DNA of 64,000 nt, taken from contig NZ_JASJAV010000011.1 of assembly GCF_030066895.1 (NCBI RefSeq), forward strand, positions 1-64,000. The letters run 5' to 3'. Both the position numbers and the translations under genes were made by a program. The notes beneath the pieces were generated by a model that was not told where the DNA came from, did not search any database, and saw nothing but the letters and a program-made list of their open reading frames with translations. Positions within the stretch are counted from its first letter, which is position 1, and every line of letters begins with the position of its first letter. Shown in pieces: positions 1-62,800 of this stretch. Source of the stretch: Breoghania sp. (GTDB taxonomy: Bacteria; Pseudomonadota; Alphaproteobacteria; Rhizobiales; Stappiaceae).

Positions 1-155
1 CGCACAATGCGGCGAATGGCCTTGAACATGCGTGCCGCTTCGTCAAGCGTATCGGTTAGACTTGACCCTGCGGGATCATTACGCAGACCTTTGGAGGCGC
101 GCGTATCCTCGGAGGAGCGCAGGTCTCGAGAGGTCGGATTGCGGGACGTCGTCAC
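1..155 (-). CDS. N-terminus of a divergent gene cut by the window edge, possibly a MarR-type regulator
   Basis: An open frame runs from a GTG at 155 off the left edge, 51 codons without a stop. The residues at its inner end (DEAARMFKAIRRIV) resemble the first helix of MarR-family regulators, and regulators of that type are known beside NAGGN genes. That assignment is inference from a short stretch. It would be transcribed divergently from asnO across an 87-bp gap holding AT-rich, partly repeated sequence (cgtttgaa, cgtcaaac). The frame could be chance in GC-rich DNA. Confidence 0.35.
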   Translation of the reverse strand, partial: MTTSRNPTSRDLRSSEDTRASKGLRNDPAGSSLTDTLDEAARMFKAIRRIV

Positions 156-242
156 GGTAAAATTCCATATATCGTTTGAACTCTAATCGATATGCCTCTA
201 ACTATATCGCGTCAAACGAAATCGAGAGATGCCTGATCAACC

Positions 243-2024
243 ATGTGCGGTATTTGCGGCGAGATTCACTTCGACGGTGCCCCGGCCTCCGCGGCCCGGC
301 TGGAACGAATGACGGATGCCATGGCCTCGCTCGGGCCGAACGGTGCCAGCGTCGTGACGCGGGGTCCGGTGGGGCTCGGACACCGCCGTCTGAAGATTAT
401 CGATCTGTCGGAAAAGGCGGCCCAGCCCTTTGTCGATACCGCACTGGGTCTGACCATCGCCTTCAACGGCTGCATCTACAATTACCAGGAGCTGAAGGCC
501 GAGCTTGAGGCCAAGGGCCACGTCTTCGCCTCCACCGGCGATACGGAAGTGATCCTGAAGGCTGGGCCCAGTGGGGCCCGGGTGCGGTGCCGAAGCTCCA
601 GGGCATGTTCGCCTTCGCCATCCACGAGCGCGAGAGCGGCCGGGTGTCGCTGGTGCGCGACCGTTTCGGCATCAAGCCGCTCTATCTGGCGGAGAAGGGC
701 AAGACCCTGCGCTTTGCCTCCACCCTGCCCGCACTGCTGGCAGCGGACGATGTGGACACCGACATCGATCCCACAGCCCTTCACCATTACATGACGTGGC
801 ACGCGGTCGTTCCCGCCCCGCGCACCATCCTGAAGGGCGTGCGCAAGCTGCCCACCGCCACGATCCGCGTGATCGAGCCGGACGGCACGTCGCGCGATCA
901 CACCTACTGGGAACCGACCTTCGTGCGCTCCGACGAAGACATGCGTCGATCGGCCGAGGAATGGCGCGACATGGTGCTGGATGCGCTGCGCCTGTCCGTC
1001 GACCGCCGCATGGTCGCCGACGTGCCGATCGGCGTGCTTTTGTCGGGCGGCGTGGACAGCTCCATGATCGTCGATCGTCGGCCTTCTGGCGGAGGCCGGA
1101 CAGAAGGGGCTGACCACCTTCTCCATCGGATTTGAGGAAGCGCATGGCGAGAAGGGCGACGAGTTCGTCTATTCCGATCTCATCGCCAAGCACTACGGCA
1201 CCGAGCACAACAAGATCTTCATCAAGTCCGACGAGATGATGGAGAACCTGCCGAAGGCGATTGCAGCCATGTCAGAGCCGATGGTCTCCTACGACAATAT
1301 CGGCTTCTTCCTGCTGTCGCGCGAGGTCTCCAAGCACATCAAGGTGGTGCAGTCGGGTCAGGGGGCGGACGAGGTCTTCGGCGGCTATCACTGGTATCCG
1401 CCGCTGGCCGGTTCCATCGATCCGGTCGCCGATTATGCGGGCGCCTTCTTCGACCGTACCCACGAGCGACTTGCCCGCTACCTCCAGCCGCACGTGATGG
1501 CGAACCGCGACGAAAGCCTCGCCTTCGTGGAGGAGCATTTCGCCCGTCCCGGCGCGGACGATCCGGTCGACAAGGCGCTTCGGCTCGACACCAACCTCAT
1601 GCTGGTGGATGACCCGGTCAAGCGCGTCGACAACATGACGATGGCCTGGGGGCTTGAGGCGCGGGTGCCCTTCCTCGATCACGAGCTGGTGGAACTGGCG
1701 GGCCGCATCCCGGCGCAGTTCAAACTCGATCAGGGCGGCAAGGGTGTGCTGAAGGAAGCTGCGCGCAAGGTGATCCCCTCCGAGGTCATCGACCGGCCGA
1801 AGGGCTACTTCCCGGTACCCGCCCTGAAATACATTCAGGGGTCTTACCTGGAGATGGTGCGCGACGCGCTCACCAACGAGAAGGCGCGCTCGCGCGGGCT
1901 TTTCCAGCAGGGTTATCTGGATGATCTCTTCGCCAATCCGACCGAGCACATCACCCGTCTGCGAGGATCGGAACTGTGGCAGGTAGCCCTTCTGGAGATG
2001 TGGCTGCAGGCACAGGGGGTCTGA
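243..2024 (+). pseudogene. asnO: N-acetylglutaminylglutamine amidotransferase (asparagine-synthase type), two frameshifts
   Basis: This enzyme amidates N-acetylglutaminylglutamine to the osmoprotectant NAGGN using glutamine and ATP. The N-terminus MCGICGEIHFDG carries the Cys2 nucleophile of class II glutamine amidotransferases. The synthetase half has the PP-loop SGGVDSS at about residue 267. Length, roughly 590 codons, is normal for AsnO. The product is spread over three frames: 243 to about 575, about 575 to 1075, and about 1075 to 2024. One indel lies in the g/c run near 570 and another after SSMIV near 1075. The next gene starts 2 bp after the stop, so it is an operon with ngg. Identity is secure from the three-gene context; whether the indels are biological or assembly errors is open. 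Confidence 0.88.
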
Positions 2025-2026
2025 GC

Positions 2027-3818
2027 ATGACGGAGCAGGAAAAGACCGCAGCGGCGCGCCAAGGCCTCCTACCTACGATCACAGGCTGCGCCGCATGCGC
2101 GACCAGGGTCTAAAACCTCCGCTGGAAACGACGGAGATGCGCAAGAACGCCTCCATCGATTGCGGCTGAGGTCGGCTGATCTTCGCCGAGACCTTCGACA
2201 ACCCGGATGAACTCGCCGCCACCTTGCGCGATGAAGGGCCGGACCGGCGCGACATCGCCTTCTACCGTGCGCGATCCGCATGTGCTGCTGGCTTGCGCCC
2301 CGCAGGAACTTTTTCTCGACCCCTCTCATACTTTTACCGGGTCGATCTCTCCACCTACCGGCCCGCACGGCGCATTCACAAGGGCTTCCACATCCGTCGA
2401 CTTGCCATCGAGCAGGATGCCCAGGCCGTCAACGTCATCTACCAGTCGCGCCGCATGGTGCAGGTTCCGCCGGAATTCTTCTGGTCCAAGCGCTCCGCCC
2501 AGACGATCACCGTTCTGGTGGTGGAAGATGCGGAAACCGACGAGATCATCGGCACGGTCTACGGCGTCGACCACCGCCATGCCTCCGGCGATCCTGCAAC
2601 GGCTGCTCGCTGTGGTGTCTGACGGTCGCTCCGCAGGCGCACCACGGCGGCATCGGCGAGGCACTCGTGCGTCACACCTGATCGAGCAGTCCCAGGCGCG
2701 CGGCTGCGCCGATCTCGATCTCTCCGTGATGCACGACAACGACCAGGCCATCGCGCTTTACGAAAAGCTCGGTTTCGAGCGCGTGCCCTTCTTCACGGTC
2801 AAGCGCAAGAACCCGATCAACGAGAAGTTCTACGCCGGTCCCACCACCGAGGAGGATCTGAACCCCTACGCCCAGATCATCGTCAACGAAGCGCAGCGGC
2901 ACGGCATCCATGTGGAGGTGACCGATGCCGAGGGCGGCTTCTTCCACCTGACCTATGGCGGCCCCTCCATCCATTGCCGCGAGGCGTTGTCGGAATTCAC
3001 CACCGGTGTGGCGGTCTCCATCTGCGACGACAAGGCCGTGACGCGCCGGGTGGTCAGCCATGCGGGCGTTCAGGTCCCGGCCCAGATCGAGATCGGGCTG
3101 GATGAACCGCTGGATGCGGCCGATGCATTCCTCAAGGAACACGGATCGGTGGTCGTCAAACCGGCGCGTGGCGAACAGGGGCGCGGCGTTGCCATCGATC
3201 TCTCTCCACCGAGGAAGAGGTTCACGGTGCGATCGAGAGCGCGTGCAAGCTCTGCGACCAGGTTATTCTGGAGGAATTCGTCGAGGGCAACGACCTGCGT
3301 CTCCTCGTCATCGATTACCGGGTGGTGGCCGCCGCCATGCGCCGTCCGCCGCTGGTGGTGGGCGACGGGGTTTCCACGATTGCGGAGCTGATCGCCAAGC
3401 AGAGCCGTCATCGTCAGGCGGCGACGGGCAGGGAATCCACCATTCCGGTCGATGAGGAAGCCGAACGCTGCCTTGCGGCGGCCGGTCATTCGCTCGACGA
3501 GGTTCTGGCGGAAGGCACCGACGTGATCGTGCGCTGCTCCGCCAACCTGCACACAGGCGGCACCATTCATAATGTGACCGGCGCGTGCACCCGGCGCTGA
3601 TAGAGGCCGTGGTGAATGCCGCGCGCGCCATCGAGATCCCGGTCACCGGCATCGACCTGATGGTGAAAAGCCCGCGTCTGGCCGACTATCGCTTCATCGA
3701 GGCGAACGAACGCCCGGGGCTGGCCAACCACGAGCTGCAGCCGACGGCGGAACGTTTCGTCGACCTGCTGTTCCCGCTATCAATCCCGCAGGCAAGCCGC
3801 GAGGCACGGAGGAAATAA
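2027..3818 (+). pseudogene. ngg: N-acetylglutaminylglutamine synthetase (GNAT plus ATP-grasp), heavily disrupted
   Basis: The family joins an N-terminal GNAT acetyltransferase to a C-terminal ATP-grasp ligase and makes the N-acetylated glutamine dipeptide of the NAGGN pathway. The ATG at 2027 follows the asnO stop. GNAT signature pieces (HGGIGEALVRH, DNDQAIALYEKLGF) and ATP-grasp pieces (VVVKPARGEQGRGVAI, FIEANERPGLANHEL) are all present, but in different frames. At least six frame changes can be placed (near 2072, 2270, 2330, 2600, 3220 and 3590). A TGA at 2167-2169 replaces the Trp expected after DCG. Total length near 595 codons fits the family. It cannot make a full product as written. 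Confidence 0.86.
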
Positions 3819-3858
3819 GGAGAGCAGGGAAGAGGCGTGGGGGAAAGGATCTTCGAGT

Positions 3859-3994
3859 GGCCCATCCTTCGACACGGGCCCTAACGGCCCTCCTCAGGAT
3901 GACGTTATCGTGTTGTTGGCTCCCCAAAAATGCGAGCGACACATTCAACCTCATCCTGAGGAGCGGTCGCAGACCGCGTCTCGAAGGATGGACC
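3859..3994. repeat. Paired REP-like palindrome, copy 1
   Basis: The left arm begins cccatccttcga and runs through a small hairpin (gggcc-ctaac-ggccc) to cctcaggatgacgtt. A spacer of about 45 bp follows. The inverted right arm reads tcatcctgaggagcggtcgc and ends tcgaaggatgg. The outer arms pair with each other. This copy lies inside the NAGGN operon between ngg and the peptidase gene; the other four copies lie between convergent genes. Confidence 0.85.
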
Positions 3995-4122
3995 ACCTGA
4001 AAGGTCACCGCCGAAGCGCCCCTCCCCGGACCCCGCGATGGGAGCGGCAAAAGCCACACCCTAGCCGAAGCAGGGCATCTGCCCCATCATGACGCTACAG
4101 GAATCAAAGGAACTGTACCGCC

Positions 4123-5321
4123 ATGACGTTGCTCGCCGTCGATATGAACTATCTTGCCAAGTCGCTTCGCGATCTCCTGAAGATCCCGAGCCCGACCGGC
4201 TATACCGACGCCATCGCCCGCCATGTCTGTGAGGAACTGAGCCGCCTCGGCCTCGATTACGAGCTGACCCGGCACGGCGCGGTGCGCGCCGTCCTGCCCG
4301 ACCGCAGCCGCCGCCTGGCGCGCGCCTTCGTCTCCCATGTCGACACGCTCGGCGCGCAGGTCAAATACCTGAAGGAAAACGGTCGGCTGGAACTGGTCCC
4401 GATCGGTCACTGGTCGGCCCAGTTCGCCGAAGGCGCACGCACGACGATCTTCACCGAACAAGGGCACCTATCGCAGCACCATCCTGCCCCCCCCCCCCCA
4501 AGGCCTCCGGCCATACCTTCAACGAGGAGGTGAACGAGGCCCCGATCGGCTGGAAGCACGTGGAGCTGCGTGTCGACGCGCCCTGGCGTGCAATGCCAAC
4601 GACGTGGCGCATCTGGGGATCGATGTGGGCGATATCGTCGCCATCGACCCCCAGCCGAAATTCCTCGACAACGGCTTCCTCGTCTCCCGCCATCTCGACA
4701 ACAAGGCGGGCGTCGCCATCATGCTGGCGGCCATCAAGGCGCTGGTGGATGCAGGCGAGAAGCCGCCGGTCGATATCTTCTGGATCTTCACCATCGCGGA
4801 GGAAGTCGGCCACGGGGCATCTTCGATCCTCACGCCCGACATCGCCTCGCTGATCGCCATCGACAACGGCACCACCGCGCCGGGATAGAATTCCGACGAG
4901 TTCGGCGCCACCATCTCCCTGGCGGACCAGAGAGGTCCTTTCGATTTCCACCTGACCCGCAAGCTGGTGCAGCTCTGCCGGGACAACGATATCCGCTACC
5001 AGAAGGACGTCTTCCGCATTACCGCTCGGATGCGGCCTCGGCGATCGAGGCGGGCGCGGATGTGCGCATGGCGCTGATCACCTTCGGCGTGGATGCCAGC
5101 CACGGCTACGAGCGCATTCACTTCCACGCCCTGCGCTCGCTGGTGGAACTGACCACCTGCTTCGCGCTGAGCCAAGTCGCCATACGCCGCGACGCCAAGG
5201 AGCACGCGGGCCTGAAGGGCTTCCCGCGCCAACCGATGAGCAAGGCCGAGCAGTACCTGACGCCGGAAGTCGACGAGCCGAAAGATGTGGAGTGGAATAC
5301 GAGCACGAGGCGGACGAGTAG
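4123..5321 (+). pseudogene. NAGGN-system M42-family peptidase, disrupted
   Basis: This is an M42/M20-like di-metal aminopeptidase of the type found with asnO and ngg; its role in NAGGN metabolism is not settled. Pieces such as AFVSHVDTLGAQVK (metal-binding His and Asp), SRHLDNKAGVA and FTIAEEVGHGA (catalytic Glu pair) identify it. A run of 13 C at 4487-4499 shifts the frame where about six C would restore ILPPKASGH. A TAG at 4886-4888 sits where Gln is expected (APG-Q-NSDEFG). Further frame changes occur near 4590 and 5020 and at the C-terminus, where the natural stop is probably the TAG ending at 5321. A REP element separates it from ngg. Confidence 0.83.
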
Positions 5322-5339
5322 TGGCTCTGAAGCCTGCAG

Positions 5340-5496
5340 CCGATCCGTCGAGACGGCCTTGGGCCTCCTCAGGATGACGTTATCGTGGTGATAGTTCCAC
5401 GCAAGGCGCCATCCAACACCGAGCCGCCGTCAAAGCCGGCAACACACACAGCGTCATCCTGAGGAGCGGTCGCAGACCGCGTCTCGGAGGATCGGC
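5340..5496. repeat. Paired REP-like palindrome, copy 2
   Basis: Left arm cgatccgtcgagacgg to cctcaggatgacgtt; right arm gcgtcatcctgaggagcggt through gtctcggaggatcgg. The outer arms are slightly diverged from the other copies (gatcc against catcc). It fills the gap between the convergent peptidase (+) and DUF2336 (-) genes. Confidence 0.82.
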
Positions 5497-5546
5497 CGCG
5501 CGAATTGAGCGCAACCAACGTTGAAATGTGGGAACTGTGCTGAGGC

Positions 5547-6616: not shown

Positions 6617-6956
6617 TCCGTATCAGGTACATCGCCCGTCGCACTCATCCAAAAACCATCATGGTCGGTACCATGGAGCGCATGCCGGGGCCGGGTTCGG
6701 AGACTCGAAGATAAACCCAATGGCTTCAGGAAGGATTAACACCGATAAAGGTTTTTTCAGGCGCAATCCGCACGGCAAAATCGCCCGAAACCGGGCCTGC
6801 GACATTTTCTACAATGATTTGAATCCCGAAGCATATTGTCGTCGCGAGCACGGTTTCCAACGTCGTTGCTGCACAGCAGCATCATTTCTGCTTCTCAACG
6901 GTGTTTTCTATACCTACTCTTGGCTGTCGTAAGACGTCCGACAGGGAGGCTTTGAA
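6617..6956. other. Intergenic region upstream of the microprotein gene
   Basis: No convincing long reading frame was seen; the open frame at 6450-6932 is antisense to the DUF2336 gene and has no family features. The stretch presumably carries divergent promoters for the DUF2336 gene and the 27-codon ORF at 6957. It ends in a strong Shine-Dalgarno sequence (acagggaggc). Confidence 0.4.
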
Positions 6957-7040
6957 ATGACTCTCGACCGCAGTGTTGGTCTAATCATCGTATGCGCCGC
7001 GTTGACGTTCATCGTCGCAATTGTAATCGGCGTTCTTTAG
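6957..7040 (+). CDS. 27-residue single-span membrane microprotein
   Basis: The ORF is absent from the ORF track because of its length. ATG at 6957 is preceded by a near-ideal Shine-Dalgarno (agggagg, about 7 nt upstream). The product begins MTLDRSVG and continues as one uninterrupted hydrophobic stretch of about 19 residues (LIIVCAALTFIVAIVIGVL) ending at TAG. A Rho-independent terminator follows 46 bp downstream, so this is a self-contained short transcription unit. I do not recognise a family. Small hydrophobic proteins of this form often modulate membrane protein complexes, which is only a general expectation. Confidence 0.6.
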   Translation: MTLDRSVGLIIVCAALTFIVAIVIGVL

Positions 7041-7085
7041 TGGCCTGGAGAGTTCGTCTCAAATCGGAAATCGAGTTTCAGGAGT

Positions 7086-7111
7086 GCCCTCGGAGCGAGG
7101 GCGTTCCTTTT
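7086..7111 (+). terminator. Rho-independent terminator of the microprotein gene
   Basis: A perfect 7-bp stem gccctcg/cgagggc with a 3-nt loop (gag) is followed by the T-rich tail gttcctttt. It lies between the microprotein and the convergent azoR gene. Confidence 0.75.
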
Positions 7112-7153
7112 CATTTGATTGAAGCCGTCAGCTCACGCGTCCGCAGTGCGGTC

Positions 7154-7753
7154 TCAGGCGGTCTGCCGGAGCGCTTCCACGGTTTCCTCGATCAGATCGT
7201 GCGCGGCCTTCAAAACTTCCTCCGCCTTGAACAGCTGCTCGCCCGCGTTGATCACGGTCACGTCGTTCAAACCGATGACGCCCAGCACATGCCGCATGTA
7301 GCGGGTCGCGAGATCGACCTCGGAATCCACCGGCACGCCGCCCGATGTCACGATCAGATAGGCCTTCTTGCCCGTGAGCAGCCCTTCCTGCCCCGCTTCG
7401 GTGTAGCGGAACGTCTCGCGCGCCCGGCACACCAGATCGACCCACGCCTTGAGCGCTGCGGGAATGGCGAAATTGTAGATCGGCACGCCGATGACCACCG
7501 CATCGGCCGCGCGCAGCTCGCCGATCAGCGTATCCGACAGCGCCAGCGCCGCCTTGTGCTCGTCCGCATCGGTGAAGTTCGCGGAAATCCAGCTCTCGTT
7601 GACCACCGGCAGATCGACGGCAACGTCGCGGGAGATGACCTTGGTATCGCTGCGACGCGCCTTGACCGCATCAACGAAATGCTTGGTGAGGGCGCGGGAG
7701 ATGGATCCCTCGCTGCGAGCGGAGGAATCAACTTTGAGAATCGTGAGAGACAT
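7154..7753 (-). CDS. azoR: FMN-dependent NADH:quinone/azo reductase
   Basis: A 199-residue flavodoxin-like protein of the AzoR family, which reduces quinones and azo bonds with NADH through bound FMN. The N-terminus MSLTILKVDSSARSEGSISR holds the FMN phosphate-binding loop (SSARSEGS). The flavin-binding segment VPIYNFAIPAALKAWVD and the TSGGVP loop are also in place. Length is typical (about 200). It is cytosolic and likely a homodimer. The gene stands alone, convergent to the microprotein, and shows no lesions. Confidence 0.92.
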   Translation of the reverse strand: MSLTILKVDSSARSEGSISRALTKHFVDAVKARRSDTKVISRDVAVDLPVVNESWISANFTDADEHKAALALSDTLIGELRAADAVVIGVPIYNFAIPAALKAWVDLVCRARETFRYTEAGQEGLLTGKKAYLIVTSGGVPVDSEVDLATRYMRHVLGVIGLNDVTVINAGEQLFKAEEVLKAAHDLIEETVEALRQTA

Positions 7754-8140
7754 TAGCTTCTTTTCCGTTTGACCCGCTTGGGACGGGCTTGGTTCAAACG
7801 ACCAGTTTAGCTATTTCGCATCGCAACATAAGACCTCGTCCTTCGAACACAGCGTTCACACTGCCCTTTTGAACGAGGGAAGAAGGATGCCGATGAGAAG
7901 ATGGAGGCAGAGGGAAGAGGTTGGAGGCTGGCAGGACGCTGCGGAATCTCCACCGTCATGGCCGGGCCTTGTCCGGGCACTCCAGCAGCAGCGGCAAATG
8001 CGGAAAGCGATGGATCTCCCGGATAAAGCCGTGGGATAACGACGGTGAGGGGATGATGTGCTCGGCACGCTCATCACAACGCGCCGACCGCATCGCAAAC
8101 CGGGGAGGAAAGCGCGGCGCTCCCCTCCCCCTGATCTTGC
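7754..8140. other. Intergenic region between azoR and metH
   Basis: The gap holds the azoR promoter side and the 3' side of metH. A stretch from about 7957 (gtcatggccgggccttgtcc) resembles degenerate alphaproteobacterial intergenic repeats but forms no clean palindrome. No gene with family features was seen. Confidence 0.35.
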
Positions 8141-11860
<3,720 letters not shown>

Positions 11861-19781: not shown

Positions 19782-20705
19782 ATGATCACGCTGAAACAGT
19801 TGCGCTATTTCGATGCCCTCGCCCGCCACCACCATTTCGGCAAGGCAGCGCGCGCCTGCGCGGTCACACAGCCCGCGCTCTCCATGCAGATCCACGAGCT
19901 GGAGGCGTCCTTGGAGATAACCCTGGTGGAACGGCGTCCGAGCGAGGTTCGGCTGACCCGCGAAGGCCGGGAGGTGGCGCGGCGCGGCGCCGTCATCCTT
20001 TCGGAAGCGCACGACCTGATGGATTGCGGCCGCCATACGGCGAGCGTCCTGAACGGCTCGCTGCGGCTCGGCATCATTCCCTCGCTTGCCCCCTATCTGT
20101 TGCCCCGCGTGCTGCCAATTCTGGAGCGCGAATATCCCGATCTCGATCTTCGCCTGCGCGAGACGCTCACCGAGACGCTGGTGGACGAACTAGTCAGGGG
20201 CGATCTCGACGTGGTGCTGATGGCGCTTCCTGCGGGTCACGCCGACGTCGAGTGCGAGCCGCTGTTCAACGACCGCTTCCTGCTGGCAACGAAATCGACG
20301 CCCGATCTCGACGAACGCTGCCGGGTGGCGCCGGAAGATGTGGCAGCAGACAAGTTGATGCTGCTGGAGGAAGGCCATTGCCTGCGTGATCAGGCGCTGA
20401 CCTATTGCTCGCCGCTAGGCATGGGACATTTTTCGAATTTCGGCGCGACCAGCCTGACCACGGTCATGCAGATGGTGGCCGCCGGCTACGGCGTGACGCT
20501 GCTGCCGGAAATCTGCACCGATGTGGAAGTGCGCGACGAACGCATCGCGCTGCTGCGCTTCACCGAGCCCCAGCCCGCACGCACCATCGGCCTTGCCTGG
20601 CGCAAGACCTCACCGCGAAAGCACGACTTCGAAGCGCTTGCCCACCTGATCGTGGAGGCCGAAAAGCACCACGGCACGCGCCCCCGGCGACAGAGATCCC
20701 GGTAA
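19782..20705 (+). CDS. oxyR: Hydrogen-peroxide-sensing LysR-family regulator OxyR
   Basis: OxyR activates peroxide-defence genes when two cysteines form a disulfide. The ATG at 19782 (MITLKQLRYFDALA) gives the standard LysR N-terminal helix-turn-helix; the longer track start would add 47 unrelated residues. The redox pair is visible as GHCLRDQALTYC, Cys200 and Cys209, matching the E. coli pair C199/C208. Length is 307 residues and the gene is intact. It is divergent from katG, its probable target, and has a perfect dyad directly at its start codon. Confidence 0.95.
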   Translation: MITLKQLRYFDALARHHHFGKAARACAVTQPALSMQIHELEASLEITLVERRPSEVRLTREGREVARRGAVILSEAHDLMDCGRHTASVLNGSLRLGIIPSLAPYLLPRVLPILEREYPDLDLRLRETLTETLVDELVRGDLDVVLMALPAGHADVECEPLFNDRFLLATKSTPDLDERCRVAPEDVAADKLMLLEEGHCLRDQALTYCSPLGMGHFSNFGATSLTTVMQMVAAGYGVTLLPEICTDVEVRDERIALLRFTEPQPARTIGLAWRKTSPRKHDFEALAHLIVEAEKHHGTRPRRQRSR

Positions 20706-20784
20706 CACCGTGCACCTCGGTCGCGCGCGTCTCACGCCCGAATGCGGAGAGTTCGGAGAGCGCATAAAACCCGAGACGATCTCC

Positions 20785-21394
20785 TCAACCGGCATAAACC
20801 CACTGTTCGGGGATATAGGCGACAACCGCCTCCCCGTCATGGACGGTTCCCGGCTCCTCCACCCAGGCAACCAGCCTGCGCAGACGGGCCGCGACCTTGC
20901 GAAAGGCGAGATCGAGCCCCTCTCGATCGGGAAGCTGCGCCGCGATCGACCGGCCCGAGACCCGGCACGGGGCATTCTGCCTGTCAACCCGCAGCACCGC
21001 TCCGTTTTCAAACACCAGACGGGTGCGCAGCGGGATCATGGAAAGATTGGGCAGATCGTCCAGCACCATGTTGGCGCCGAATCCATTCCGGCTCTAGCCT
21101 GTCGATCCCCATCCGCCGCGCGACCTCCGCGAGTTCGTCGGATGCAAGAATGGAGATCTGACGCTCATTGCGCATTTCCGTTCCGCGCGGATACCACGGC
21201 TCGCGCCCGCCCGAGCGCCGCGTCGTGCCCGCATGAACATCTCCCGGAATACCATCGAAGGTAAGATCGAGCGTCTCGACCCGGCCGGTGACGAACGTGT
21301 CGCCCTCCGCCGCCAGCAGTCGCGAGACCGTGCCGGAGATCTTTCGTGCAGGACGGATCTGCAAGGCATCGTCAGGTGAAACGGCGACGGTCAT
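20785..21394 (-). pseudogene. MOSC-domain protein, one frameshift
   Basis: MOSC domains bind sulfur-carrier or molybdenum-cofactor related ligands, as in YiiM and Moco sulfurases. The N-terminal half (PARKISGTVSRLLAAEGDTFVTG, then DGIPGDVHAGTTRRSGGREPWYPRG) reads from 21394. The C-terminal half (VLDDLPNLSMIPLRTRLVFENGAVL, with Cys in QNAPCRVSGR) reads one frame away. An indel at about 21075 separates them, at PEWI-G-AN. About 200 residues in total. It is convergent to oxyR with a 79-bp gap. Substrate unknown. Confidence 0.75.
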
Positions 21395-21595
21395 AGGCTC
21401 GGTTCCTTCGGCGGCGGCAGAGAGGGATGGGCTGAAAGAGGATTATCCGCCCCGCACGCCCCTGTCGAGCCGCGCATGGATTGTCCCCTCGCCATTGCAC
21501 GATCATGGCACCATGCGGTAAATTGCCGCTACGTTAGTTTGAGCATTTTTGCAGGCCCGACGAACAAGGGCCGCGCTTTTTCCGTGAGAAATTCA

Positions 21596-22356
21596 ATGTT
21601 TCGATTGTCGCTTGCGGTCCTCGCCGCCTGCTTGTTTTTCGGCGAAGCAACGGCGCAGGATCTCCGCCCTCCGACCAAGGATGCTATGCCTCGCCGACCG
21701 CCTTTCTGGCCTGCTCGGGCAATCCTTACGCGCTTTGCTACTATTCCGGCCCGAACGACCCTACCCCGCGCTACGACAATGTAGCGGCCACAGCCCTGCC
21801 ATGCACGGTGGACGGCGATGACGTTACCTCCGCCGATTGCGTCTGCTACGCCATCACCGAGGAACAGGTTGGCCCGCTCGACACCAATTTCGTGCTGATC
21901 GGCTCGATCCTCAATGACAGGCTACACGAGGAGACGATCGCGCAATGCGGGCCGCTGGGGCGCAACTTCCTCAACATGAAGAACCCCAATTCCTGCCGTC
22001 AGGACCCGTCCCAGCCCCATTGCCAGACGGCGAAGGTGTGCGACAGCCTGGGTTCCATCAAGGACGGCACGCCGCAGAGCTTCGACGACGGCCCGAACGT
22101 GAAGCTGATTTCCACCTTCTCCTTCACCTATTCCTTCAACCACCCCTTCGGCTCGACCGACTGCGCCGATGATAACCCGGGGCCCCTTAACGCCGCCTGC
22201 ATGACCGCCGCCTGCACGGCGGCCGATGGCGGGCTGACGACCTGCTCCTGCCCGATCTACGACGGCAAGTATCAGGTGGGGCAGACCGGCGCCACGTGCG
22301 ATATCTCGCCGAATGTCTGGTCGGCGGCGGACAATCTGTTGCTCAACAGGGACTGA
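21596..22356 (+). pseudogene. Secreted cysteine-rich protein of unknown function, one frameshift
   Basis: MFRLSLAVLAACLFFGEATAQ is a clear signal peptide with probable cleavage after AQ. The mature part is rich in Cys (at least 14), many in close pairs (CVC, CSC, CMTAAC), so a disulfide-bonded extracytoplasmic protein of about 230 residues is expected. One base is missing near 21685; the frame from there (YASPTAFLACSGNPYALCYYSG) continues to 22356. I do not recognise a characterised family. It is divergent from the MOSC gene and followed by a REP element. Confidence 0.6.
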
Positions 22357-26272: not shown

Positions 26273-27045
<773 letters not shown>

Positions 27046-27049
<4 letters not shown>

Positions 27050-44075: not shown

Positions 44076-45170
44076 GTGCCAGCCGCAGCGATCGAAACAA
44101 GAAAAATCTCCAAGATATTCGGGTCCGGCGACAGGGAAGTCCGGGTGCTCGACGAGGTCTCGCTGGAAATCCGCGAGAACGAGTTCTTCACGCTCCTCGG
44201 GCCATCGGGTTGCGGCAAGCCCACGTTGCTGCGGCTGATCGCGGGCTTCGAGGCGCCGACATCCGGTCAGCTTCTTCTCTACGGCAACGACATATCGAAC
44301 GAGCCGCCCTATCGACGGCCCGTCAACACCGTCTTCCAGAGCTACGCGCTCTTTCCTCATCTCACCGTCGCCCAGGACATCGTCTTCGGGCTGAAAATGT
44401 TCGACAGGCCGAAGGCGGAAATCTCCGCGACCGTCAACGAGATGCTCGCCATGGTGCGCATGGAGACGATGGCCCACCACAAGACCAGCGAGATTTCCGG
44501 CGGCCAGCAAAAGCGCGTGGCGCTTGCCCGCGCCCTTGCACCGAGGTCGAAGGTTCTGCTCCTCGATGAACCGCTTTCCGCACTCTACCTGAAGTTGCGC
44601 AAAGAAATGCAGCGCGAGCTGAAGCGCCTGCAGATCGAGACCTGGATCACCTTCGTCTTCGTCACCCACGATCAGAAAGAAGCGCTGACCATGTCGGACC
44701 GCATCGCGGTGATGAGTTCCGGCAAACCGTTGCAGGTCGGCACGCCGCGCGAGATCTACGATCGCCCGGCAAACCGCTTCGTGGCCGGGTTCATCGGCGA
44801 ATCCAATTTCCTCACCGCCGCGATCACCTCCGCCGTCGCGGACACCGCCCGCGTTCTGATCGGCGGCAGGCTCGACATGGAAGCCGTGCTTCCCGCCGAC
44901 GGGCCACGCTCCGGCAAGGTGACGGTCGCGATCCGGCCGGAACAGGTCCGCCTCGTGGACGAGACCGAGACCAACGCCATCCCCGTAACGGTGACCGACA
45001 CGGTCTATTTCGGCACCGACACGCACACCCATCTCCTGCTCGATGACGGAGAAACAGTCGTCGCGCAGTTCCAGAAAACGCTCGCCCATTCGGAAGAATT
45101 CGCCAATGGCACGCGCGTCGGCGTTCAGTTCTGGGAGGGCTCGGTGCAGGTGCTGAGGGAGATGCCATGA
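44076..45170 (+). CDS. potA: Spermidine/putrescine-type ABC transporter ATP-binding protein, with altered catalytic residues
   Basis: The open frame of 364 codons is unbroken and ends in a TOBE-type domain (VAIRPEQVRLVDE). Signature ISGGQQKRVALARALA, Walker B VLLLDEP and switch His FVTHDQ are present. Two key positions differ from the family: the Walker A reads GPSGCGKP at residue 49, where Thr follows the Lys (ccc for acc), and the D-loop reads LSALY at residue 171, where Asp is expected (tac for gac). Either change should cripple ATP hydrolysis. The GTG at 44076 is a reasonable start. potB begins inside its stop codon (atga). Confidence 0.85.
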   Translation: MPAAAIETRKISKIFGSGDREVRVLDEVSLEIRENEFFTLLGPSGCGKPTLLRLIAGFEAPTSGQLLLYGNDISNEPPYRRPVNTVFQSYALFPHLTVAQDIVFGLKMFDRPKAEISATVNEMLAMVRMETMAHHKTSEISGGQQKRVALARALAPRSKVLLLDEPLSALYLKLRKEMQRELKRLQIETWITFVFVTHDQKEALTMSDRIAVMSSGKPLQVGTPREIYDRPANRFVAGFIGESNFLTAAITSAVADTARVLIGGRLDMEAVLPADGPRSGKVTVAIRPEQVRLVDETETNAIPVTVTDTVYFGTDTHTHLLLDDGETVVAQFQKTLAHSEEFANGTRVGVQFWEGSVQVLREMP

Positions 45171-46107
45171 GCGCGATCGAGATATCCGGCACCGCCGCCG
45201 AGGATCAGGAGGCCCAGGCAAACGCCGCGCGCACGAAGCGCAACTGGCTGTTGTCGCTGCCCGCCGTGATCCTGCTGTTGTTTGCAGCCTCCGGCCCGCT
45301 GGCGATCGTACTGATCTATTCGTTCCTCACACCCGGCGACTACAGCGGCGTCAAATGGATCCCGACATTCGACGCATGGATCGAGATCCTATTCACCCGG
45401 GATATCTTCGACGACACGCTCGGTCTTGCTGACGCCCATCTCACAATCTTCTGGCGCTCGGCGAGCCTCTCGTTACTGACAACGCTGATCACCTTCCTGC
45501 TCGGCTTTCCGACCGCCTATTTCATCGCCACCCGCGCCACGCGCCAGCGCGCGATCTGGCTCTTTCTGATCACCATCCCGTTCTGGACCAGCCTCCTCAT
45601 CCGCACCTTCGCGATCATGGAAGTGATCCTTAACAACGGCCTGATGAACGCGGTGCTGATGAAGGCGGGGCTCATCGCGGAGCCGATCCAGATCCTCTAT
45701 TCCAACACCGCCGTCCTCATCGGCATGGCCTACGTCTACCTGCTGCTGATGGTGCTGCCGCTCTACGCCTCGCTAGAGCGCTTCGACTTCCGTCTCGTGG
45801 AGGCGGTGTACGACCTTTACGCGGGACGATGGATGGTTCTGCGCAAGGTAAAATCCTGCCGCTCGTCAAACCGGGCATCATCGCCGGATCGATCCTCGTC
45901 TTCATGCCCTCCCTCGGCGCCTACGTGACGCCCCGCGTGCTCGGCGGCGGCAAGCACATGATGATCGGCAGCTTCATCGAGCTGCAGTTCGGACAGGGAC
46001 GCAACTGGCCGCTCGGCGCATCGCTGTCGATGCTGCTGCTCATCATCGTCGGCATCGGCCTGATGTTCTACGTGCGCGTCACGTCGCGGGAGAAGCCCTA
46101 TGACTGA
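45167..46107 (+). pseudogene. potB: Polyamine ABC transporter permease PotB type, one frameshift
   Basis: A multi-span inner-membrane permease. The first part (WLLSLPAVILLLFAASGPLAI; FLLGFPTAYFIATRATRQRAI) contains the expected helices up to VEAVYDLYAG. A frame change near 45835 follows. The second part (ILPLVKPGIIAGSILVFMPSLGAYVTP) holds the membrane-permease EAA-loop end and last helices to 46107. ATG overlaps the potA stop by 4 bp and potC overlaps its own end, so translation is coupled. Length about 312 residues is normal. Confidence 0.85.
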
Positions 46108-46619
46108 TCACGACCATCTACCTGCTGATCAACCAGCCGCTGACGGTGCTGGAGATCGTCACGGCCGTGGCGCTGCTGATCTTCTTTTCCATGATCCGGG
46201 TCGCGACCGGCTATTCGGGACTTGGCTACCTGATCGCGGCGCACGCCGCCTTCTGCGTGCCGTTTGCCTATCTGCCAATCCGGGCGCGTCTTGAGGGCAT
46301 GGACACGGTGCTGGAGGTGGCAGCCGCCGATCTCTACGCAACGCCGTGGCGGGCATCCCGACGGGTGATGCTGCCCCTGATGACGCCGGGCATCGCAGCC
46401 GGCGCCATGCTCGCCTTCGTGCTTTCGCTCGATGACGTGATCATCACCGAATTCGTCAAGTCGGCGGGCCAGGACACCCTGCCCACCTACATGTTCGGCC
46501 AGTTGCGGCGCTCGATCACACCCGAAGTCAACGCGATCTCCACGGTGCTGCTCGCCATCACCGTCGCCCTGCTCACATTGTTCTTCATTCTGACCCGCAA
46601 GCGAAACAAGACTACCTGA
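46100..46619 (+). pseudogene. potC: Polyamine ABC transporter permease PotC type, N-terminal deletion
   Basis: The ATG at 46100 overlaps the potB end as expected. Only a few codons later the sequence jumps to TIYLLINQPLTVLEIVTAVALLIFFSMI, which in PotC proteins lies about 90-95 residues from the start. About 80-85 codons, including the first helices, are missing and the frame changes at the junction near 46110. The rest is intact: EAA loop (VLEVAAADLYATPWRASRRVMLPLMTPGI) and last helices to 46619. A deletion of around 240 bp explains this better than single-base errors. Confidence 0.78.
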
Positions 46620-46647
46620 CCCCCACACCAATGGAGGAAGAGAGACA

Positions 46648-47677
46648 ATGCGTTACCGTTCCCTGCTGATCGCTGCCGAAGCCCTGCTCGCAGCAACGAG
46701 CCTCGCCCATGCAGAGGGCGAACTGAACATCTACAACTGGGGCAACTACACGAGCCCCGACCTGATCAAGAAGTTCGAGGAAAAGTTCGACGTCAAGGTC
46801 ACCATCACGGACTACGATTCCAACACGACCGCACTGACCAGGGTGGCAGCGGGCGGACACGGCTTCGACATCGTCGTCCCTCCGCCAACTACGTCCCGAT
46901 CTTCGTCGGCAAGGACCTGCTGCTGGAATCACGCCCCGACCAAATGGAGAACTTCAAGAACGTCTCCAAGCGCTGGCAGGACGTGCCGTGGGATCCGAAC
47001 CGCCACTATTCCGCGCCCTGGCAATGGGGAACCACCGGCGTTTCCGTCAACAAGACAACCTATTCCGGCGACATCAACACCTCGGCCATATTCATGGATC
47101 CGCCGGAGGAACTCGTTGGCAAGGTCAACGTGATCCCGGAAATGTCGGACGTCATGGCGATGGCCGTCTGGTATGCAGGCGGCGGCGTCTGCACCGAAAA
47201 CAAGACGGTTCTGAAGAAGGTGCGCAACCTGCTGGTCGCCGCGAAGCCGAAATGGCTGTCGATGAACTACGGCATGACCGAAAAGATGTCGAACAATGAC
47301 GTTCTAACCTCGGTCAACTGGTCGGGTTCGAGCTACCGCGTGCGCCTGAAGAACCCGGACGTCGCCTACGGCTACCACAGGAAGGCTATCCGGTGAGGAT
47401 GGATTCCGCGGCCATCCTCAAGGACGCCAAGAACGTCGAAAACGCCAAGCTTTTCATGAACTTCATCATGGATCCGGAAAACGCCGCGATGATCTCCACC
47501 TTCGCAGGCTACGCCAACGGCATCGACGGTTCGCAGGAATTCATGCCCGAAGAAATGAAGACAGCACCGGAAATTAACGTGCTTGAAGAATTGGCAAGCA
47601 CGGGCCAGTTCCTGCCGACCTGCCCGCCGAAGGTTCAGAAAATTTACACCGCGATCTGGACCGAAGTGATGAAATGA
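46648..47677 (+). pseudogene. Polyamine ABC transporter periplasmic binding protein (PotD/PotF type), disrupted
   Basis: The signal peptide (MRYRSLLIAAEALLAATSLAHA) leads into ELNIYNWGNYTSPDLIKKFEEKF, the standard PotD/PotF start. Middle blocks (YSAPWQWGTTGVSVNKTTYSG) and the end (KLFMNFIMDPENAAMISTF; STGQFLPTCPPKVQKIYTAIW) are present. Frame changes occur near 46880 and near 47385, the latter creating an early TGA after AYGYHRKAIR. Total about 343 residues. It follows potC by 28 bp as the last gene of the operon. Putrescine or spermidine is the likely ligand from family membership. Confidence 0.83.
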
Positions 47678-50765: not shown

Positions 50766-51827
50766 TCACACTCCCCAACGCAGCGCCGGCGTGTTGACGG
50801 GAGCGTCGTAGAGACGGAGCAGTTCGTCGTCCACCTTCAGAAACGTGATCGACATGCCAGCCATTTCCAGCGACGTGATGTAGTTGCCGACAAGATTGCG
50901 GACGATCTTCACGCCATGACCCCCGGCCAATTCGGCCAGCTTGTTGTACACCGTATAGAGTTCCGACACGGGCGTGCCGCCCATGCCATTCACCAGAGCG
51001 ATCATTTCATCGCCCTTTTCAAATGTGATGTCTTTGACCTCGGTGTCCACCCAGTCGCCCTTTTCCACATCCCATTTGGACAATTGCCGCGTATAGGCCT
51101 CGTCCTCGAAAATGTGCTTGCGCAGGGTCTCGGTGATCCCGTCGGCCGACTTGATCTTGGTGCGCTCCACCCCCGGTTCGCCGTGAATGCCGATGCCGAT
51201 CTCGTCTTCGGCGAGTTCGAAGCTCGGCGTACCGTTTTGCGGCGTTGTGCAGGGCGTCAGCGCCATACCCATGGACTTGCCGTGGATGTTCACCTTCTTG
51301 CAAAGGGCGGCGAGCTTGTCGAGGTCGTAGCCTTCAAGCGATGCGCCGCCGCAGATTTTCTCCGCAAACACCGTCGTGCCCAGACCGCGACGCCCGGCCG
51401 TGTAGAGCGAATCCTTCAGCGCCACGTCGTCGTCGATGATGATGTTGTGGACCTCGATGCCATCGTCGCGCAACATGTCGGCGGCCATCTGGAAGTTCAT
51501 GACATCGCCGGTGTAGTTCTTGACGATCTGCAGGATACCCTTGCCGCCATTGACCGCCTTACCCGCCTCGTACATCTGATCGGGTGTGGGCGAGGTGAAG
51601 ACCGATACCGGGCAGGCAGCATCCAGCATGCCATAGCCGACGAACCCGCCGTGCAGCGGTTCGTGGCCCGATCCACCGCCCGACATGACCGCCACGCGAC
51701 CCGAAATGCCGCCTGCCACGGACATGAAATTGGGATCGAAATGAACCTCGACCTCCGAATGAGCGGCTCCGAACCCTTTCAATTGTTCAACGACGACGTC
51801 CTCGGCGTTATTGATGAGCTTTTTCAT
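50766..51827 (-). CDS. dhaK: PTS-dependent dihydroxyacetone kinase, substrate-binding subunit
   Basis: DhaK binds dihydroxyacetone covalently through a His and is phosphorylated via DhaL-ADP. The protein is intact at about 353 residues. [16 protein letters not shown] near residue 50 and the substrate-binding His in GIGIHGEPG near 220 are in place. The ATG at 51827 is chosen because aggag lies 8 nt upstream, two codons inside the track start. It sits between glpF and dhaL in a glycerol/dihydroxyacetone operon. It is the only undamaged gene of the set, but cannot work without DhaL and DhaM. Confidence 0.93.
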
Positions 51828-51838
51828 CTGCACTTCTC

Positions 51839-52673
51839 CTAATCTGACGTTTCGCCCGCGTCATAGGCTTCGAACACGGACTTGTAGTAACCGTGATAGA
51901 ACGCACCGGCGACGAGGCCGCCGATGATCGTGGAGACGGTGGGAATCCACCAGCCACCACGCGGACCGGGCAACGCGATTTCCCCCCAGCCGAACAAGTA
52001 GGACATGATCCGCGGACCGAGGTCGCGTGCCGGGTTCATCGCCGTCATGGAGATCGGCGCCTCGTAAGCCACGAGAGCTGCAACGAGAAGACCGATGAAG
52101 AACGGAACCAGATTGGCCGACGGGGCCGCCGTATTGTGGGGATCGGTCAGATAGAGAACGCCGAACACCAGAATTGCCGTGGTGAAGGCCTCCGACAGGA
52201 ACCATTTCGTCAGAGAGACCTGGGCAAACACTTCCGGTGTTGATCCGAAGAAAGCGGGGTTGGGCGCATAGGTACCGAAACCCATGGCGGAAAGCTGACT
52301 ACCGGACTGACCGCGAATGATCTCCTTGCCAGCCTCGAATACCGCGATGATGTCCGCGTAGAACCAGTAGATCGCTGCAGCCGCCAGCATGGCGCAAATG
52401 AACTGAGCGATGATGTAGGGAGCAACCTTCGACCAGGGGAACCCCATGAAGACCGCCATCGTGATGGTCACTGCGGGGTTGATGTGGCCCGCCGGTCATC
52501 TTGGCCGACACATAGACGCCGAAAGCGACGCCCAGAGCAAACATCATGGAAACAGGCCAGAGGCTGAGCCATCCGGTCCATACCGACACGGCGACGGATC
52601 CAACACCGAACAGTACGAGGATGAACGTGCCGAGTCCCTCGGCAGCCATCTCGCATGCTATCCCTCGCTTCAT
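51839..52673 (-). pseudogene. glpF: Glycerol facilitator (aquaglyceroporin), one frameshift
   Basis: A six-helix MIP channel. Both pore motifs are present: GHINPAVT, split by the frameshift near 52490, and MNPARDLGPR. The start MKRGIACEMAAEGLGTFILV at 52673 is preceded by gggagg. The N-terminal part reads to AKMTGG; one base too many near 52490 then shifts the frame, and ITMAVFMGFPWSKVAP continues to 51839. The Asp after NPAR marks a glycerol-type rather than water-type channel. It heads the glpF-dhaK-dhaL-dhaM operon, so glycerol or dihydroxyacetone uptake is the likely role. Confidence 0.87.
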
Positions 52674-53698
52674 TGCTGGACCTCCCATAGTTCGTTGGTA
52701 TCAGCGTCGGCATGGCGTTACCGCCACCCTTTCGACGAAGCGAACACGAAGCCATATGCTGACTCGGGTGGATACCAACTCGGGCAGATACGGAACTTCG
52801 TCGCGGGCCTGTCTCGACTACCGGCGCGACAAGGAGCCCATCATAACTCTCGGTCATGGGCAAAAGACCCTTCTGCGACATTCCGTTGCGTTACGTCAAA
52901 CACGGCAGAATTCCGCCATCCGGGTAGAGCAACACAAATATTGACGTTGGGTCACTTTTTGTATCTAGCATTTATTTAAAAGAATTTTTACGCAACGTCA
53001 TTTCTGACCATATACTTCCGCACGCCCACTGCTTGAGAGAACGGACGCCCATTTGGTCCTTGAAAGACGGGTCCAGACGCCCCCACCCCTCCGCTGACGG
53101 CAGCCTTACCGGGCGCGGAGCCCCGCGTACAATTAAGACGATAAATGATTCCAGATCGGGAATAATATTAATATATAAAAATATATTTCTATGTTTTATC
53201 GCCTTGATCTATATGTTTTATTTCGAAGAAAGAGAAGTTGTCTCAAGTTTTTCAGGCTTTTAAATTTAGCTTTATAACTCATACAGTTACGGACATATCA
53301 ACGGAAGATTTATGACATCTCGTCGCAGCGGCTGTTGAATTTGAGATTCCGGCTGTTACCCTCCACCGCATCCTAGGCTAGAGAGCAGATCAAGGCGTCC
53401 ATCCAAAGCTTCATCTTGAAGCAGCGCCTTGACGGGTCGGCCAGCGGCGTCGGCCGGGCGCTTCGCGCAACCCCTTGCGAACGCGCACCGCGTGCTCTCA
53501 TCGCCATCCCGTCCGGTCCACCCCGTCGACGTGTCCGTCGGCTTTCGGGCGATTTCGTGCGCATTACGGCGCCTTACCGGCCGGACGCGAACAGGACGAC
53601 ATCCCCGTTCAATCCGCCGGCGTCGTCGGCGGGCGGGAGACATGTGTTCCCCGCCGATGTCAAGCGCAAAGCGAAGTTCGAAAGAGGAGGCTTCCCAC
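52674..53698. other. Long intergenic region without a recognisable gene
   Basis: About 1 kb between divergent glpF and the betaine methyltransferase. It has an AT-rich core (53130-53300, with runs such as aatattaatatataaaaata) flanked by GC-rich sequence whose small frames lack family features. A minus-strand frame at 53356-53706 is Arg-rich and looks like noise. Promoters for both genes must be here. A decayed gene cannot be excluded. Confidence 0.4.
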
Positions 53699-55212
53699 AT
53701 GCGCACAGCGTATCACTCGCAAAACGCTGAACTGGAACTGGACGAACAGACCTACGGCCAGGATCCGACCGCCGACTGAAAGATCGACCTTTACCGGGGC
53801 GAATACATCATGTCCTTCGTGGAGAAGTGGGACGAACTGATCGACTGGGACGCGCGCGCTGAAAGCGAAGGCCAGTTCTTCGTCGACGTGTTGCGGGCGC
53901 GCGGCAAGGAGACGGTCCTCGACGTGGCCACGGGCACCGGTTTCCATTCCGTGCGCCTGACCCGTTCCGGTTTCAACGTGACCTCGGCCGACGGGTCCGC
54001 CACCTTGCTCGCCAAGGCTTTCGAGAACGGTCAGAAGCGCGGCATGATTCTGAAGACGGTGCAGGCCGACTGGCGCTGGCTGAACCGCGACATCCAAGGT
54101 AAGTACGACGCCATCATCTGCCTCAGCAATTCCTTCGCGCACCTGCACGAGGGAAAGGACCGCCGCCGCGCGCTGGCGGAGTTCTACGCCGCACTGAAGC
54201 ATGACGGCATCCTGATCATCGACCAGCGCAACTACGATGCGATGTTCGATCATGGCTTCTCCTCCAAGCACAAATATTACTATGCCGTGGACAAGGTGAC
54301 CACTGAGCCGGAATTCATCGACGAAGGCTTCGCCCGCTTCAAATACAGCTTTCCCGACGGATCAGAGTACACGCTCAATATGTGCCCGATCCGCAAGAAC
54401 GACATGCGCCGCCTTCTCTCCGAAGCAGGCTTCGAGCGCATACGCACCTATGGCCATTTCCAGGAAACCTATGCAGAGGAAGATCCCGATTTTTTCATTC
54501 ACATCGCGGAGAAATCGAGCCTGCATCTGGTGCGCTGGGGCGGAGGAACGACCGCGGAGGGCGAAAGCGATATCCGCGAAGTTGGCCGAGAGCTACTATG
54601 ACAGCGACGACGCTGACACCTTCTACAGCCTCGTCTGGGGCGGTCAGGATCTCCACGTCGGCATCTACGACACGACGAAGGACATCCGCACGGCCTCCGA
54701 TCTGACCATCGATGAGATGGTGAAGATGCTGCCGAAGCTCGGTGACGACACGACCATCCTCGACATCGGGTCGGGCTATGGCGGTGCCATGCGCAAGGTG
54801 ATCGGCGAGAACGGCGGCTCGGCCGTCTGCCTGAACATCTCCAAGTTTCAGAACGACACCAACCGTCACCGCAACCGCCAGAAGGGCTTTGCCGACAGGA
54901 TCCGCGTCGTCCACGGCGTCTTCGAGGACATTCCGGAAAAGCCGGCAAAAGCCTGGGCTCGCCGCGCTTCTACCGCGAGGCCGCCGAGGCGCTGGGCTTT
55001 GAAACGGTGGAACAGCGCGACATGGTCGGCCAGCTTGGCACCCACTACTTCCGGGTTCGCGAGGAACTGCTGTCGAACTACGACAAGCTGCGCAGCGAAG
55101 GCGCATCAGCCGAGTATCTCGACAAGATGGCCGCCGGGCTCCAGAGCTGGGTGGATGCGGCCGATGCCGGAAATCTTGCCGGAGCATCCAGCTCTTCCGC
55201 AAGCCGGACTGA
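53699..55212 (+). pseudogene. Fused glycine/sarcosine and sarcosine/dimethylglycine N-methyltransferase (betaine synthesis), disrupted
   Basis: The first half is glycine-sarcosine methyltransferase: FVEKWDELIDWDARAESEGQFF, SAM motif VLDVATGTGFHSVRL. The second half is sarcosine-dimethylglycine methyltransferase: YYDSDDADTFYSLVWGGQDLHVGIY, SAM motif ILDIGSGYGGAM. They are joined by about 15 codons without an independent start, as in the fused halophile enzymes. The ATG at 53699 follows aagaggagg. TGA at 53777-53779 replaces Trp before KIDLYRGEY. Frame changes lie near 54590 and 55185. About 70 codons are missing near 54945, where FEDIPE jumps to LGSPRFYREAAEALGFE. The end LFRKPD at 55212 is the family C-terminus. 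Confidence 0.85.
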
Positions 55213-60826: not shown

Positions 60827-62800
60827 ATGATCGGACCAGTCGTGCGACACGCCGAGAGGCGCGTGGGATTTGCCTTGCCTCTGGCTGCAGTCCTTGCGGC
60901 ACTGATCGCACCTGTCGAGGCGGCGGACATATCCTCCGACCGCCCGGTCAGCATGACGTCACGCGCCTTCGCCCCGCGTTCACCCGCCTATGAGACGGTC
61001 TTCCAGCGCGTCGAGGCCTCGACCCACGGCATAGACAAGCCGCTGGAGTTTTCGATGAAAGACATGTGGCCCCCCTTCTGGGAAGGGCGCAGCCTGACGA
61101 CCGGCAACATCGACAATGACGACGATCTGGATCTGGTGATCGCCTCCACCGAACGCGGCGTCTACATCTACAAGAACGACGGCACCGGCGGGTTCAGCCG
61201 ATCGGCGGACGAACTCGGCCTGGTGGCGGATCTCGACGTCTTCAACGCCGCGCTGGTGGATATCGACAACGACGGCCGGCTCGATCTGTTTCTCGCCACG
61301 TATGCGGACGGCAACTACGTCGTCTACAACCGGCAGGGCGTTTTCAACACCGCCTCGCCGCAACGCATATCCAACCGCGAGGAAGCGATGCTGTCGATTT
61401 CGGTGAGCTTCGCCGATGTCGACCGCGACGGCGACCTCGATGCCATTATGGGCAATTGGGCGGCAGGCTGGTACCGGCGCATCCCAGGTGAGAAATCGCG
61501 CAATCGGCTGATCTTCAACGAAAACGGATCGCTCAGCGGCAACCATTTCACCGATATGGAGGGGCTGCCCGGCGAGACGCTGACCATCCTGTTCAGCGAT
61601 ATCGACCTGAACGGCACAGCCGATCTCCTGGTCGGCAACGATTTCGAGATGCCGGATCACGTTTATCTCGGCGACGGCAAGGGCGGTTTCACCGCCATCA
61701 CCCGGGCCAACGAGCCGATCCCGCACACCACCATGGCGATCAAGGTGGCGGATCTTCACAATGACGGGACGCCGGAACTTTTCTTCGCCCAGATCGCGGG
61801 GCGGTCGTCGGCGGTCTCGGAACGGCTGAAGATGCAGCCGCTGTCGCAATATTGCGATGGCATTCAGGACGCCCCGACCAAGGCGCTCTGCCTCCGCAAC
61901 ATGGCAATCAAGACCTGGTACAAGGCCGGCAACAGGTTCGATCCGGATTACGCGGAAAAGTGCGAGGAATTCGAAGGCGAGCTAAAGGCGGAATGCAAGG
62001 CGATGTCGGTCAAGGATCTGCTGATCCAGAAGAACGATCCGACGATCTGCGCTCTGCTCCCCGCCGACCAGAAGGTGACGCGGGCCTTTTGCGACATCCA
62101 TTTCAAGCCCCGGCTGAGGCCGCTGCAATCGGTCTTCGACACCACGGTTCGGCAAGTCATGCGCACGAACGTGCTGCTGACACGGCCGGGTACGGACAAG
62201 GCCTATACCGACACCGCCTTGAGCGAAGGGCTGGAGATCGGCGGCTTGTCCTGGGACACGAAGATCGCCGATTTCGACAATGACGGCCTGCAGGACGTCT
62301 ATGTCGTCAACGGTACCTGGGTGCCGAACGGGGTCAGCCCGTCAAATCTGTTCTACCGCAACATGGGCGACGGAACCTTCACCGAGACCTCGGGCCCCTT
62401 CGGGCTGGAAGATTACCTGATGACCGCCAGTGCGGTTGCCTTCGACATGGACCATGACGGCGATCTCGACATCATCACCCAACCGGTCAACGGCCCCGTC
62501 TCTCTCTTCCGCAACGGTTCGCAATCCGGCAACGCCATCGAGGTCGAATTGCGCGACGCCAAGGGCAACAGCCGCGGGGTGGGCGCACGGCTGGACGTCG
62601 AACTGCCGGACGGAACCCGGATGATGCGCGAGCTGCAATCGGGCGGCGGCTTCATGTCGTTCGATGCGCCGGTGGCGCATTTCGAACTTGGCGAGGCGGA
62701 CGAAATCACCCGCCTCACGGTCCACTGGGCAGACGGCGGACGCACGGAGGTCTCCGGCCCGCTCAAAGCAGGCGCCAGCTACCGCCTCACCCGCGAGTGA
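60827..62800 (+). CDS. Secreted CRTAC1-like protein with FG-GAP/VCBS repeats and a C-terminal ASPIC/UnbV domain
   Basis: The 657-residue product has an N-terminal signal peptide ([17 protein letters not shown]) and repeated calcium-binding-like FG-GAP/VCBS units, seen as [45 protein letters not shown] and [14 protein letters not shown]. These form a beta-propeller. The C-terminus ([27 protein letters not shown]) is an ASPIC/UnbV domain. An unusual Cys-containing insert (residues ~345-430) separates the repeats. It is intact. A dihaem peroxidase gene follows 205 bp downstream. Function unknown; a surface or periplasmic binding role is likely. Confidence 0.85.

Follow-up and report, generated by a model that had tools for sequence, protein, structure and literature searches.

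A damaged GSMT-SDMT fusion gene in Breoghania sp. and its genomic context

The gene described here is very probably a recently dead, vertically inherited fusion of a glycine/sarcosine N-methyltransferase and a sarcosine/dimethylglycine N-methyltransferase (GSMT-SDMT), and its death appears to be one event in a genome-wide decay of accessory genes. It lies in the window, i.e. the whole stretch of 64,000 nucleotides that was analysed (positions 1-64000 of contig C47), which is part of a 4.65-Mb draft genome of Breoghania sp. in 52 contigs with an estimated completeness of 94.9%.

The damaged gene and its ancestral place

The pseudogene begins at the ATG at 53699 and ends at 55212, as originally predicted, and when it is aligned to the intact gene of the congener B. 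corrubedonensis all four of the lesions that had been predicted (a TGA, two frameshifts and an internal deletion) are recovered. The features of this locus are:

53699..55212, forward strand: fused GSMT-SDMT pseudogene, recognised by alignment to the intact B. corrubedonensis and Roseibium genes and by the profiles NF051855 and NF041675
53777..53779, forward strand: nonsense TGA replacing the codon for Arg27, a residue invariant in an alignment of 12 proteins; made by substitution
53804..53806, forward strand: codon for Tyr36, mapped by alignment to PDB sequences as the equivalent of the catalytic Tyr26 of Methanohalophilus portucalensis GSMT; it follows the TGA and precedes the next ATG
53810..54601, forward strand: residual open frame of 263 aa in the first methyltransferase half, without the N-terminal 37 residues
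about 54582, forward strand: 1-bp insertion that shifts the frame within the linker joining the two halves (alignment to the intact gene)
54945/54946, forward strand: site in the second half from which 178 bp have been deleted, out of frame (not a multiple of three) and with the loss of codons about 416-475 as numbered in the intact protein
55180/55181, forward strand: 1-bp deletion, a frameshift near the C terminus (alignment to the intact gene)
50766..52688, reverse strand: upstream neighbours, an intact dhaK and a broken MIP/glpF-type channel gene (dhaK1 and MIP families), collinear with B. corrubedonensis contig C17 40513-45567

With four independent disrupting lesions in comparison to its intact orthologues the gene is a pseudogene, the first frame of which stops after 26 residues. 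In a pairwise alignment it shows 85.6% DNA identity to the intact gene of B. corrubedonensis DSM 23382, and at the protein level the gene of Roseibium aggregatum PHM038 is just as close, with 90% in the first half. The residual first half carries a recognisable GSMT domain, scoring 415.6 bits against NF051855 (glycine/sarcosine N-methyltransferase; cut-off 350), with the match on the remnant covering positions 23-257 only. The residual second half scores 108.2 bits against NF041675 (sarcosine/dimethylglycine N-methyltransferase), the curated cut-off for which is 550, a value that the intact B. corrubedonensis protein, at 287.2 bits, also does not reach; a complete in-frame SDMT domain is no longer present, as pieces of it lie in other frames and 178 bp are deleted. 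The alignment and the two profiles bear out the earlier claim that GSMT and SDMT are fused in one damaged gene and, on the evidence of its sequence, the pseudogene is a member of the GSMT-SDMT family by descent but not a working member. A second, intact copy of GSMT-SDMT was not found in the draft genome of Breoghania sp. The ancestral gene, like that of B. corrubedonensis, would have encoded one polypeptide of about 563 residues, which would have turned glycine into glycine betaine by three SAM-dependent methylations; as judged from its family, the intact B. corrubedonensis enzyme most probably forms betaine by this route. Both methyltransferase activities should have been removed by the early nonsense codon, the two 1-bp indels and the 178-bp deletion.

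In B. corrubedonensis, an intact fusion gene is located beside the same glycerol/dihydroxyacetone-kinase genes and, since the upstream neighbours are conserved and collinear in the two genomes, the pseudogene sits at its ancestral place. A recent horizontal gain of GSMT-SDMT was also considered, but in view of this collinearity it is unsupported.

Some other features of the region were also recorded. Directly after the pseudogene an extra segment of about 36 kb opens with a nickel/cobalt efflux and cobalt ECF transporter region; this segment (55213 to about 91100 of the contig) is absent from the corresponding place in B. corrubedonensis, and synteny is regained near 91.1 kb. The genes at 45167-47375 of the window are split or shortened; their collinear counterparts in B. 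corrubedonensis (C17 45860-48704) appear to encode an ABC transporter of the polyamine type. An ORF at 26384-27049 has an unusually low GC3 (0.45), and neither this ORF nor one of 657 aa at 60827-62800 has an NCBIfam match at E 1e-20.

Broken genes across the genome and the osmolyte routes

The state of other genes was surveyed in 841 kb of Breoghania sp. (about 18% of the genome; contigs C1, C24, C29, C47, C8, C35, C42 and C49), 1.25 Mb of B. corrubedonensis and 400 kb of Breoghania sp. L-A4, with genes called mechanically. The compared set consisted of 250 B. corrubedonensis genes of at least 180 aa with a match of at least 60% identity, and in Breoghania sp. 123 of these (49%) are intact, 108 (43%) are disrupted and 19 are short, so that a large disrupted share is seen together with intact core genes, which is the pattern of early erosion. 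The disrupted genes contain stops in 43 cases, frameshifts in 27 and both in 38. By the same method, only 2/34 and 3/35 genes (6-9%) were disrupted between the congeners B. corrubedonensis and L-A4, and in the reverse control, where frames of Breoghania sp. were looked up in B. corrubedonensis, 15 of 198 were disrupted. Further, the G+C content of Breoghania sp. is 61.0% versus 63.8-63.9% in its congeners (2.8 points lower), and its mean ORF length is 285 aa versus 364-366 aa. The intact genes include examples from replication, repair, translation and secretion (mfd, uvrA, mutS, gyrA, recG, argS, secD, murJ, ftsY and folC, as well as a homoserine dehydrogenase), whereas flhA, fliF, soxB, xdhB, phaC, an RND permease, a hybrid kinase and malic enzyme are disrupted. 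There are four in-frame stops in flhA, and a stop and frameshifts in fliF (contig C1:10189-12294 and 20128-21606), and motility has probably been lost in Breoghania sp. With accessory genes broken and core genes kept, the death of GSMT-SDMT would form part of a general decay of dispensable genes.

A raised dN/dS, considered as a proof of such decay, is not seen in bulk, the median being 0.133 for the broken genes and 0.137 for those that are intact. As the values for the two groups are equal, the breakage is read as recent when set against the separation from B. corrubedonensis, with most of the divergence predating the decay. No repeats of at least 300 bp at 90% identity, and no burst of mobile elements, are seen in the 841-kb sample, although the repeats of such elements may be fragmented or merged in the draft. 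Host restriction usually underlies the early-erosion pattern and, by analogy, the decay in Breoghania sp. probably follows host restriction or some other stable-niche bottleneck.

The original prediction also held that, with the NAGGN operon broken, two independent osmolyte routes had been lost together. The remnants of this operon are located as follows:

243..5292, forward strand: NAGGN operon remnants, viz. an amidotransferase, an acetyltransferase-type gene and an M42 peptidase, with several internal indels in each of the three genes

The operon is indeed broken in all three genes, the TIGR03104 match being split over two frames, but the damage extends to more than two routes. The betB gene, intact in both congeners, contains a TAG and a frameshift in Breoghania sp., the only BCCT transporter has an internal TAA, and two OpuAC proteins have stops or frameshifts. 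Ectoine synthase (ectC), which is present in both congeners, was not found in this 95% complete draft, and a search for ectoine remnants using the congener's 20-kb region gave only short scattered matches with no collinear block. The genes betA and choXWV are intact (contig C32, about 114-8097), the latter presumably being choXWV from their position beside betA and what is known of the families. As these choXWV-like genes and betA are intact and betB is broken, choline could enter and be oxidised to betaine aldehyde, for which there would be no dedicated dehydrogenase.

If there had been a targeted adaptive loss of osmolyte synthesis, e.g. in a lineage that had entered a low-salt niche or one buffered by a host, then osmolyte genes should have been lost preferentially, and the breakage of GSMT-SDMT, the three NAGGN genes, betB, the BCCT transporter and two OpuAC proteins, together with the absence of ectC, is in accordance with this explanation. 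However, 9 of 13 osmolyte genes are not intact against a background of 127/250 (51%), an enrichment that is not significant (p = 0.15) in a set which was chosen by judgement and in which the members of an operon are not independent. In addition, choXWV and betA have survived, and genes for flagella, sulfur oxidation and purine catabolism are broken just as much. With this p value no special cause is needed for the osmolyte losses, and a targeted loss is unlikely. Of the earlier claim, it therefore holds that both routes are broken, but not that a linked event removed them. The loss of the fused gene looks less like a distinct loss of salt tolerance than like one sign of decay throughout the genome, and where half of the genes are broken the joint loss of two pathways should not be interpreted as showing that they are linked.

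Residual function and the nature of the damage

If translation restarts at 53810, the pseudogene could still yield an active glycine/sarcosine methyltransferase alone, and the 263-aa frame does remain above the family cut-off of NF051855. However, since the codon for Tyr36 precedes this ATG, a restarted product would be without the equivalent of the catalytic tyrosine, the replacement of which in the M. portucalensis enzyme (Tyr26Phe) makes it 74-fold less active (PMC5146677). The frame also carries replacements at conserved sites, e.g. Y235D, D253H and G143S, and in the second half a part of the methyltransferase domain would be gone in any product. A residual function of this kind is thus very improbable, and the gene is better regarded as dead in both halves.

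The decay of this gene is also seen in its conserved positions. The pseudogene departs at 13 of 216 columns that are conserved at 97% or above, or at 12 if the site at the last frameshift, where the change may be an alignment effect, is left out. At the same columns B. corrubedonensis departs at 1, and 79 homologues at a median of 1 and at no more than 9. Relaxed constraint is thus indicated by changes in near-invariant columns, while the overall dN/dS is not raised. At sites where four outgroups agree, 15 replacements are found on the pseudogene branch and 5 on the B. corrubedonensis branch, although the per-position excess on the former is not significant (Fisher p = 0.35). An internal control against sequencing error is provided by a gene on the same contig:

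8141..11860, reverse strand: metH, intact (TIGR02082, 1774.8 bits)

Aligned with B. corrubedonensis over 2,694 bp (84.5% identity), metH has no gaps, whereas the NAGGN genes, about 3 kb from it, are interrupted by indels 1 to 7 bp long at 83-86% identity. Because near-invariant residues are changed in the pseudogene, and metH is free of indels at equal divergence, the damage, so far as sequences can tell, is decay and not a sequencing artefact. The proposal that the gene is intact and its lesions are artefacts of sequencing or assembly can draw upon the incomplete draft in many contigs and upon the dN/dS of the broken genes not being raised, but in the face of a 178-bp deletion, a stop that arose by substitution, replacements at near-invariant sites, open reading frames in long core genes of the same contig (metH and katG among them), 43 genes that have stop codons but no frameshift, and the division between core genes that are kept and accessory genes that are broken, it is exceedingly improbable and already largely refuted.

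Distribution of the fused gene and comparison with known systems

The fusion had been thought uncommon outside halophiles, and this part of the original prediction is contradicted both by the nearest homologues and by published work. In 80 of the 80 nearest homologues (the best 80 of 502, i.e. the most similar loci, distant unfused forms being uncounted there) the two halves are in one frame, with one of them running off the end of its locus; the fusion as a rare trait is thereby ruled out. Most of these homologues are from marine Alphaproteobacteria, and several orders are represented; the lineages are Stappiaceae, Rhodobacteraceae, Rhizobiaceae-type and Thalassobaculum, with two Actinobacteria in addition. 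Fused forms were described earlier from Rhodobacteraceae, Rhodospirillaceae and Actinopolyspora, while unfused forms exist in Rhodovibrio, Erythrobacter and Rhodothalassium (PMC7824335). The presence of an intact fusion in relatives, proposed earlier as a check, is verified by the gene at the collinear place in B. corrubedonensis, and separate genes are not seen among the best 80 of 502. A profile search of 60 relatives gave a match in 7, with all 7 in one open frame, and the same search gave no GSMT-SDMT match in Breoghania sp. L-A4, indicating that the gene is patchy even inside the genus. The fused gene was also observed to be widespread in Hyphomicrobiales, e.g. Roseibium, Nitratireductor and Chelativorans, an order reported as absent from the GMT tree of a 2020 pathway survey (PMC7824335).

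By itself the gene is unremarkable, a pseudogene of an enzyme that is well known, and it is the genome-level decay that is of moderate interest, as a 4.65-Mb Breoghania-like genome is seen undergoing mass pseudogenisation and its congeners are sufficiently close for the losses to be ordered. Early stages of erosion have been described mainly from insect symbionts. In the titles and abstracts searched, no mass pseudogenisation was announced for Breoghania, and none dealt with Stappiaceae symbionts with pseudogenes or genome reduction.

The fused GMT/DMT of Alphaproteobacteria and Actinopolyspora halophila (PMC7824335) belong to the same families and have the same domain order in one frame, but the copy in Breoghania sp. 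is dead; further, the methionine-cycle genes MAT and SAHase, which adjoin some of the known fused genes (PMC7824335), are not seen as its immediate neighbours. The GSMT of M. portucalensis (PDB 5GWX, 5HII-5HIM and 5H02) is homologous to the first half (E 1e-114 with the intact congener protein), but in that methanogen it is a separate enzyme, and the Breoghania sp. copy would be without the catalytic Tyr in any restarted product. At the level of the genome, Breoghania sp. differs from Sodalis glossinidius, which has almost 50% pseudogenes (PMC7067036), in being of a Stappiaceae lineage and in the absence of long repeats (at least 300 bp at 90% identity) from the 841-kb sample, although the repeats of mobile elements tend to be hidden in a draft assembly. 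It is similar in its broken share, with the core kept and accessory genes lost. The chances appear about even that this is a Stappiaceae lineage soon after host restriction, in which about half of the accessory genes were broken only recently and almost every compatible-solute route has been lost; if so, it would represent an alphaproteobacterial counterpart of Sodalis with close intact relatives available for comparison.
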